Shown: positions 48,695 to 50,771 of the stretch, piece by piece | Layout of the letters: the number at the start of each line of letters is the position of its first letter | Numbering within the stretch: the stretch's first letter is position 1 | DNA from: Pedobacter puniceum | Lineage (GTDB): Bacteria > Bacteroidota > Bacteroidia > Sphingobacteriales > Sphingobacteriaceae | Assembly: GCF_009674685.1 (NCBI RefSeq) | Contig: NZ_WKJI01000001.1 | Span: 992,001 to 1,056,000 of the forward strand | DNA: 64,000 bases | Direction of reading: 5' to 3' | The notes under the pieces: model-generated | What the model saw: the letters and a program-made list of their open reading frames with translations, nothing else | What the model was told of the DNA's origin: nothing | Database searches by the model: none | Program-made: the position numbers and the translations under genes

Positions 48695-49462
48695 TTAAAC
48701 CACAAATTTTTCGGTTAGATATTTCCAATACCTTCTAGGTACATGTTGAATATGTAAACGAGAATTTTTTCTTGCTTGGATTGTTGTTTTCTTAAAATAG
48801 GTTTGCCATAAATGTTGATACAACTTTTCATCTTTAACCAGCATTTCTAAACCTTCTTGTTTGTTTAGATGATTAGCAAATTTCATTTCTACCAGTTCAA
48901 CCTTATGTAAGTTATAATAAATGCCATAGGTTCTTTTCTGGTCAAAAATCATCCATTTTTGGTCTTGATAACGGTCTTTAAAATGCTTTGCTATTACTGG
49001 TAAAACATTAAAATCTGGTTCTATTTCGGCATAATAAATACCATCTAATGTTAGCCTAAAACGTACAAAAGCTTCCATTCTATGCTTCTCGCGATGTACC
49101 ATTTGCGCATATTGAGATAATTTTAAAACAGATGGATGAGAAAAATCCTGAATAATATTTCGGTTTGGATTACTTAGCGCATATTGTACAACTGCCCACA
49201 AATGCGTTTCTATATCTTCATATTCTGATAAAAAGGTATAAAGCATCCGGTGTAAACCTAAATCCCCAATGAGTGATTTTAATTTTTGATACACTCTTTC
49301 TGCTTTAGGAGCTTGTGTAAATACTTTTCTTGTTTGGGCAAAAAGCTGCTCGGTTTGTAAAGCCTCTTTTATAATCTTAACTTGTTTTAGCTTAAACTCA
49401 TAAGCTTCAAAAACTGCAGTTAAAAAGCCTTCAAAAGTATGGTCGTACAATAAAATATTCAT
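48695..49462 (-). CDS. TIGR03915-family probable DNA-metabolism protein
   Basis: 255 aa, cytosolic. Starts MNILLYDHTFEGFLTAVFEAYE, characteristic of TIGR03915, and contains QYAQMVHREKHRMEAFVRF and a C-terminal HLRRIP-like RLHIQHVPRRYW. In many genomes it pairs with, or is followed by, a uracil-DNA glycosylase-type domain (TIGR03914); this protein ends without one. Its ATG overlaps the last base of the radical-SAM gene's stop, so the two are translationally coupled. Function is unknown but a repair or modification role is inferred from the constant pairing. Confidence 0.88.
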   Translation of the reverse strand: MNILLYDHTFEGFLTAVFEAYEFKLKQVKIIKEALQTEQLFAQTRKVFTQAPKAERVYQKLKSLIGDLGLHRMLYTFLSEYEDIETHLWAVVQYALSNPNRNIIQDFSHPSVLKLSQYAQMVHREKHRMEAFVRFRLTLDGIYYAEIEPDFNVLPVIAKHFKDRYQDQKWMIFDQKRTYGIYYNLHKVELVEMKFANHLNKQEGLEMLVKDEKLYQHLWQTYFKKTTIQARKNSRLHIQHVPRRYWKYLTEKFVV

Positions 49463-50721
49463 CAGAATAAAGCTAACTGAGCGTTATATTGATCTTGATA
49501 TTTGCTTTTAGTATTGCCTAAAATAAATTGCTTTAAATTGCTGCTATTCAAAAATTTAAGATTTCCAAAATGCATTCCATATGAAATAAAATATTTGGCT
49601 CTATTTAAGGCTACACCTAGCTTTTTTAAATGAGTTTCATTTAACTGACTAAAGCGTCTGGCTTCAATAATTTTCCAAGCAGATTTTACACCAATACCAG
49701 GTACTCTTAAAATCATCTCGAAATCTGCTTTTTGAATATCTATTGGAAATACATGCTGATTTCTTAACGCCCAGCTCAATTTTGGGTCAACATCTAAATC
49801 TAAAAAAGGTAAGTTTGGATCTAGTATTTCATCGGCTTTAAAGCCATAAAAACGCATTAACCAATCTGCCTGATAAAGCCTGTTTTCTCTTACCATAGGC
49901 ACTTTACTTTGCAAAGAAGGTAAACGAGCATCATCGGCTATGGGAACATAGCCAGAATAGTAAACCCTTTTTAGCTGATAATTTTTGTAAAATGAATCTG
50001 CTGTTTGGATAATTTCTAAATCGTTCTCTTGTGTAGCACCAACGATGAGCTGTGTACTTTGCCCAGCAGGAGCAAATTTGGGTGTATTCCTGAAAAGCTT
50101 TTTTTCTTCTTTAAAAACAATAATCTCGTTTTTAACATAATTCATGGGCTTTATCATGTCTTCCCTATTTTTATCAGGAGCTAAAAGCTTTAATCCTTTT
50201 TCTGTAGGAAGTTCTAGATTTATACTTAATCTATCAGCATAAAGTCCGGCTTCTTTCATCAACTCATCAGAAGCACCTGGGATACTTTTTAAATGAATAT
50301 AACCGTTGAAATTTTCTTCCAAACGGAGCTTTTTAGCTACTAAGACCAATCGCTCCATCGTAAAATCAGCATCTTTAAAAATACCTGAGCTTAGAAATAA
50401 ACCTTCAATGTAATTTCTTCTGTAAAAGTTTATGGTTAAATCAACAACCTCTTGAACGGTAAAAGCTGCTCTTTTTATATCATTACTTTTACGAGTTACA
50501 CAATAAGCGCAATCATAAATACAATGGTTGGTTAGTAAAATTTTGAGTAAAGAAACACATCGCCCATCTTCTGTGTAAGAATGGCAAATACCCATTCCGG
50601 TAGAATTTCCTAAACCTTTGTTTTGATTATTTCTTTTAGCACCACTGGATGAGCAGGAAACATCATATTTAGCCGCATCAGCCAGAATTTCTAATTTTTC
50701 TGTTATCCTATCAAAATTCAT
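49462..50721 (-). CDS. TIGR03916-family radical-SAM DNA repair/modification protein
   Basis: 419 aa from the ATG at 50721 (the TTG two codons earlier is less likely). Radical SAM cluster motif CIYDCAYC (Cys67, Cys71, Cys74). A second set of cysteines sits ahead of it (Cys23, Cys46, Cys55, in VSCSSSG, GICHSY and GRC), which might hold another metal or cluster. Conserved LSINLELPTEKGL follows, and a helix-hairpin-helix DNA-binding motif is at about 339-355 (LRVPGIGVKSAWKI). A radical-SAM core plus HhH suggests chemistry on DNA. Co-transcribed with the TIGR03915 gene. A control region with two palindromes lies immediately upstream. Confidence 0.92.
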   Translation of the reverse strand: MNFDRITEKLEILADAAKYDVSCSSSGAKRNNQNKGLGNSTGMGICHSYTEDGRCVSLLKILLTNHCIYDCAYCVTRKSNDIKRAAFTVQEVVDLTINFYRRNYIEGLFLSSGIFKDADFTMERLVLVAKKLRLEENFNGYIHLKSIPGASDELMKEAGLYADRLSINLELPTEKGLKLLAPDKNREDMIKPMNYVKNEIIVFKEEKKLFRNTPKFAPAGQSTQLIVGATQENDLEIIQTADSFYKNYQLKRVYYSGYVPIADDARLPSLQSKVPMVRENRLYQADWLMRFYGFKADEILDPNLPFLDLDVDPKLSWALRNQHVFPIDIQKADFEMILRVPGIGVKSAWKIIEARRFSQLNETHLKKLGVALNRAKYFISYGMHFGNLKFLNSSNLKQFILGNTKSKYQDQYNAQLALF

Positions 50722-50724
50722 AAT

Positions 50725-50770
50725 CAAATTTACTAAAATATTTAGTAATAAATTGACTAAAAATTTTAGT
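50725..50770 (-). promoter_or_regulatory. Tandem palindromic operator and -7 box of the radical-SAM repair pair
   Basis: Two perfect 15-bp palindromes: ACTAAAATATTTAGT (50732-50746) and ACTAAAAATTTTAGT (50756-50770), centres 24 bp apart. A minus-strand TAAATTTG (50732-50725), a TAnnTTTG match, overlaps the edge of the first palindrome and ends 3 bp before the ATG. The layout fits repressor binding over the promoter. Inference: the regulator is unidentified. Confidence 0.55.
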
Positions 50771-50771
50771 T

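Follow-up and report, generated by a model that had tools for sequence, protein, structure and literature searches.

The twin boxes and the genes that they precede

The closest described system is the non-canonical LexA of the Bacteroidetes, a phage-repressor-like protein with HTH_3 and S24 domains that binds either CTAA-N5-TTAG or GGA-N5-TCC (Sanchez-Osuna 2021, PMC8565304). It has been studied by EMSA and mutagenesis in Pontibacter actiniarum and Salegentibacter agarivorans, with in vitro binding of the repressor to CTAA-N5-TTAG in P. actiniarum and induction by mitomycin C (PMC8565304). The targets named include a COG1573-COG4277 uracil-DNA-glycosylase operon, splB, recA, dinB, umuDC and a GIY-YIG exonuclease; several boxes can occur in one promoter, and large CTAA-N5-TTAG regulons are present in the Sphingobacteriaceae (PMC8565304).

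The window analysed here is a stretch of 64,000 nucleotides from a Pedobacter-like genome, and the features of interest lie in its right part:

48695..49462, minus strand: TIGR03915 / DUF4130 putative DNA-repair partner, with a one-base overlap with the stop of the upstream gene
49462..50721, minus strand: TIGR03916 radical-SAM protein (rSAM_link_UDG, COG4277 type) with a C-terminal HHH-like stretch; ATG at 50721-50719
50725..50732, minus strand: putative -7 promoter element TAAATTTG (TAnnTTTG), starting where the core of the proximal box ends
50732..50746, no strand assigned: proximal SOS box ACTAAAATATTTAGT, core CTAA-N5-TTAG at 50733-50745
50756..50770, no strand assigned: distal SOS box ACTAAAAATTTTAGT, core at 50757-50769

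The radical-SAM protein scores 681 bits against the TIGR03916 profile (cut-off 343.5) and is 99% identical to its Pedobacter glucosidilyticus counterpart, and the gene behind it matches TIGR03915/DUF4130 in a profile search; we take TIGR03916/TIGR03915 to correspond to COG4277/COG1573. Directly upstream of the operon and on the same strand are NmrA-like and DsbA-like genes, and both 15-mers fall within the 50-bp gap (50722-50771) between the NmrA-like gene and the radical-SAM gene, both on the minus strand, with the distal box ending one base short of the NmrA-like stop codon.

These sites were first described, from the sequence alone, as twin perfect palindromes controlling the radical-SAM repair pair. 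Both 15-mers are present with their centres 24 bp apart, and perfect symmetry is confined to the distal one; the proximal 15-mer departs from that description, having 6-bp arms and an unpaired 3-base centre. Each is an exact match to CTAA-N5-TTAG with its fixed 5-bp spacer, and the -7 box does touch the proximal 15-mer, with which it has one base in common, just before the ATG. The proposal that such a pair is improbable by chance also holds, as 200 randomisations of the window under a first-order Markov model gave no case of two CTAA-N5-TTAG sites within 30 bp. The longer motif ACTAAA-N3-TTTAGT has only three occurrences across the 3.9-Mb genome: the present pair and one immediately ahead of a PA0069-type radical-SAM gene. 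Single CTAA-N5-TTAG sites are about as frequent in the window as chance predicts (3 seen, 2.9 expected), so the box count is no evidence and the argument is one of position and conservation. Genome-wide there are 25 palindromic places for the core box and 38 for a reversed control, so it is not over-represented and matches taken without context are mostly due to chance.

Conservation and geometry of the promoter

Upstream regions from 43 relatives retain RCTAA-N5-TTAGT and not the exact 15-mer, and the predicted functional unit is CTAA-N5-TTAG, not ACTAAA-N3-TTTAGT. A core box is present within 150 bp upstream of the orthologous operon in 24 of 25 Sphingobacteriaceae-like loci, compared with 5 of 215 other ORFs at the same loci. 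An independent draw of 101 family genomes contains the TIGR03916 gene in 56, and 29 of the 30 loci examined from this draw have a box before it, the exception being L248, where the gene is present without one. The motif is thus conserved before orthologous operons, which the sequence-only reading had left as one of the points on which its proposal could fail.

The usual arrangement before the TIGR03916 gene is a single box abutting the -7 element. Twin boxes occur at only five of the 30 family loci, all from the home genus and spaced 24 or 22 bp apart, such that, going by these loci, pairing is a local elaboration and not a conserved feature; a more distant relative (L027) has a box pair 23 bp apart. 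Four Salegentibacter loci (L008, L022, L025 and L043) have GGATTTTTTCC, a GGA-N5-TCC site, at the matching position before the orthologous operon, which suggests that the same operon has changed its SOS box between lineages. The present locus resembles the GGA-N5-TCC LexA group (PMC8565304) in the operon and in the position of its box, and differs from it in motif, with GGA-N5-TCC absent before its own operon.

Of 24 boxes examined upstream of orthologues, 17 have a TAnnTTTG element whose first base immediately follows the box core. In flavobacteria the -7 element occupies positions -12 to -5 (PMC9723704), by which transcription of the present operon would begin near 50720, on the ATG itself. 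The gap between TTTG and ATG is 3–7 bases in 16 of 23 orthologues and in 2 of 197 control ORFs, the control starts being approximate since they were taken as the first ATG of long ORFs. A -7 element 3–7 bases before the ATG is also seen in most SOS targets (L230-L259, L058-L177). With the element so near the start codon, the mRNAs of the orthologous operons are probably leaderless; only 5.5% of mRNAs are leaderless in Flavobacterium psychrophilum (PMC9723704). A more general proposal, to which we would give even chances, is that Sphingobacteriaceae SOS promoters run from the box core into the -7 element with the start on the ATG, all within about 35 bp, yielding leaderless transcripts of a kind rare in the phylum, and that the twin boxes of the home clade provide tighter silence.

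The regulon and its repressor

The box combined with the -7 element (RCTAA-N5-TTAGTA-nn-TTTG) has about 125 matches, spread over 67 of the 101 family genomes, compared with 7 for a reversed control. The genes behind 122 of these matches, named from profile matches where searched and otherwise by sequence recognition, include 27 for TIGR03916, 26 for PA0069-type radical-SAM proteins, 14 for DinB/UmuC, 11 for DnaQ-type exonucleases, 6 for 2'-5' RNA ligase-like proteins and 4 for UmuD, with single cases including the S24 repressor (lexA), an ImuA-like and a RarA-like protein. The TIGR03916 operon is the commonest target of the box in the family. The sequence-only reading had called for a genome search near recA, dinB and helix-turn-helix regulator genes, and boxes were found before all three classes: in the own genome they precede recA (L056), dinB (L047, two boxes 31 bp apart), a DnaQ-type exonuclease gene, the PA0069 radical-SAM gene, the operon and the repressor gene, and umuD carries a box in other family genomes.

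Several other genes have boxes. The 2'-5' RNA ligase/LigT-like genes (PF13563) have a perfect box and -7 element before their starts (L075, L093, L096, L137, L140 and L146); as far as searched, the main text of PMC8565304 makes no mention of them. In three family genomes (L111, L142 and L148) an HD-domain phosphohydrolase-like gene is closely preceded by an SOS box. Single matches, some of which may be chance, are located before defence- or mobile-element-like genes (L083, L095, L098, L104 and L132) coding for a C5 DNA methylase, a TIR protein, and SocA/Panacea, HATPase_c_3 and Schlafen AlbA_2 proteins. A perfect SOS box also precedes an ORF of 115-132 aa (L199:2759-3157; G000:C2, about 106.8-107.2 kb) that has no Pfam or NCBIfam match and sits in an apparent conjugative element with Tra-like genes nearby. 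Some regulon members are, as far as searched, unlisted in the published account.

The own-genome repressor is a protein of 260 aa (G000:C1:841857-842636) that matches both PF01381 (HTH_3) and PF00717 (Peptidase_S24) above cut-off, and a PDB search with its N-terminal domain returned only small HTH repressors. The residues KASAG (with the Ala-Gly cleavage bond), GDSM (serine) and VYKR (lysine) are kept in 30 of 30 orthologues. An orthologue is present in 95 of the 101 family genomes; the six with no repressor match also have no motif matches, and five of these six are less than 90% complete. The repressor gene has its own box, at -28 to -38 before the ATG in all 30 loci examined, a different position from that of the boxes in register with a -7 element. 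Divergent from the lexA-like gene, and with the boxed promoter region in common, is an ORF of 122 aa (L197:2722-3090) that almost all of the family genomes examined retain; it appears GIY-YIG nuclease-like by eye, with no Pfam match.

In its box, its HTH_3 and S24 repressor with Ala-Gly and Ser-Lys residues, its target classes (including the UDG/COG4277 operon), its multiple boxes per promoter and its place in the Sphingobacteriaceae, the system corresponds to the CTAA-N5-TTAG LexA group (PMC8565304). It differs in that neither this genome nor the exact twin promoter appears in the main text of that paper, which also does not discuss the abutting -7 element or the probable leaderless start. 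With canonical LexA (E. coli, CTGT-N8-ACAG) it shares an S24 repressor, a predicted RecA-triggered self-cleavage and an operator on the promoter, but the motif is unrelated and the winged-helix LexA DNA-binding domain (LexA_DNA_bind, PF01726) was not found in the genome in a search that detected it in E. coli, B. subtilis and the other control genomes.

Proposed mechanism, alternatives and significance

We consider it very likely that the palindromes are SOS boxes of a non-canonical LexA, which would repress the TIGR03916-TIGR03915 operon until damage triggers its RecA-dependent self-cleavage and transcription follows. In the undamaged cell, repressor dimers would occupy both boxes, covering the -7 element from the proximal box and the -33 region from the distal one, and RNA polymerase would be kept off a promoter whose start point lies on the ATG or no more than two bases from it. 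Upon DNA damage, RecA-ssDNA filaments would stimulate the repressor to cut itself at the Ala-Gly bond, and the cut repressor would leave the boxes so that the repair operon is transcribed. Polymerase exclusion and RecA-stimulated relief are proposed because of the box positions over -7 and -33 and the S24 family of the repressor; for this organism we infer occupancy, cleavage, induction, the start point and any cooperation of the two boxes. The operon is very probably silent until DNA damage, and the damage-responsive repression suggested by the sequence-only reading is supported by the published SOS box, by conservation before orthologues and by the boxes of recA, dinB and the repressor gene.

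Three other explanations were weighed. The palindromes could be operators of some other repressor, such as an oxidant or quinone sensor of the TetR, MarR or HxlR type with a link to the NmrA-like and DsbA-like genes, with the SOS match a coincidence; these genes do come next upstream in the same orientation, and many families of regulator use symmetric AT-rich operators. However, relatives with quite different upstream sequence retain the box, it precedes core SOS genes in the own genome and the SOS repressor gene at all 30 loci examined, and no other regulator is common to these targets, which makes this explanation very improbable; an NmrA/DsbA-linked redox regulator in particular was rejected for want of co-conservation. 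That the repressor binds but acts as an activator, or at a fine-tuning site with no exclusion of polymerase, is also highly unlikely: activation is not excludable without non-cleavable mutants (PMC8565304), but the abutment of the proximal box on the -7 element, seen for 17 of 24 orthologue boxes, is a position typical of repression.

The sites might also have no regulatory role, being chance AT-rich symmetry or a stem at the 3' end of the NmrA-like gene upstream. The genome is AT-rich, single boxes are about as frequent in the window as chance predicts and the distal box stops one base before the NmrA stop codon, but the absence of such a pair from all 200 randomised windows and the retention of the box in 29 of 30 loci leave this barely credible. 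An intrinsic terminator was rejected, as the stems consist of AT pairs with only one G-C pair each.

The SOS box reading thus stands as preferred. The site is real and belongs to a published regulon, and the idea of its regulation is not new; the additions are modest, namely a packed, probably leaderless promoter and the unlisted regulon members. A guess made from raw sequence has been validated, and the little-studied TIGR03916-TIGR03915 pair is, as judged from conserved sequence, firmly assigned to the SOS response in relatives of Pedobacter. Should the leaderless design prove true, a bacterial damage response would gain a translational feature.
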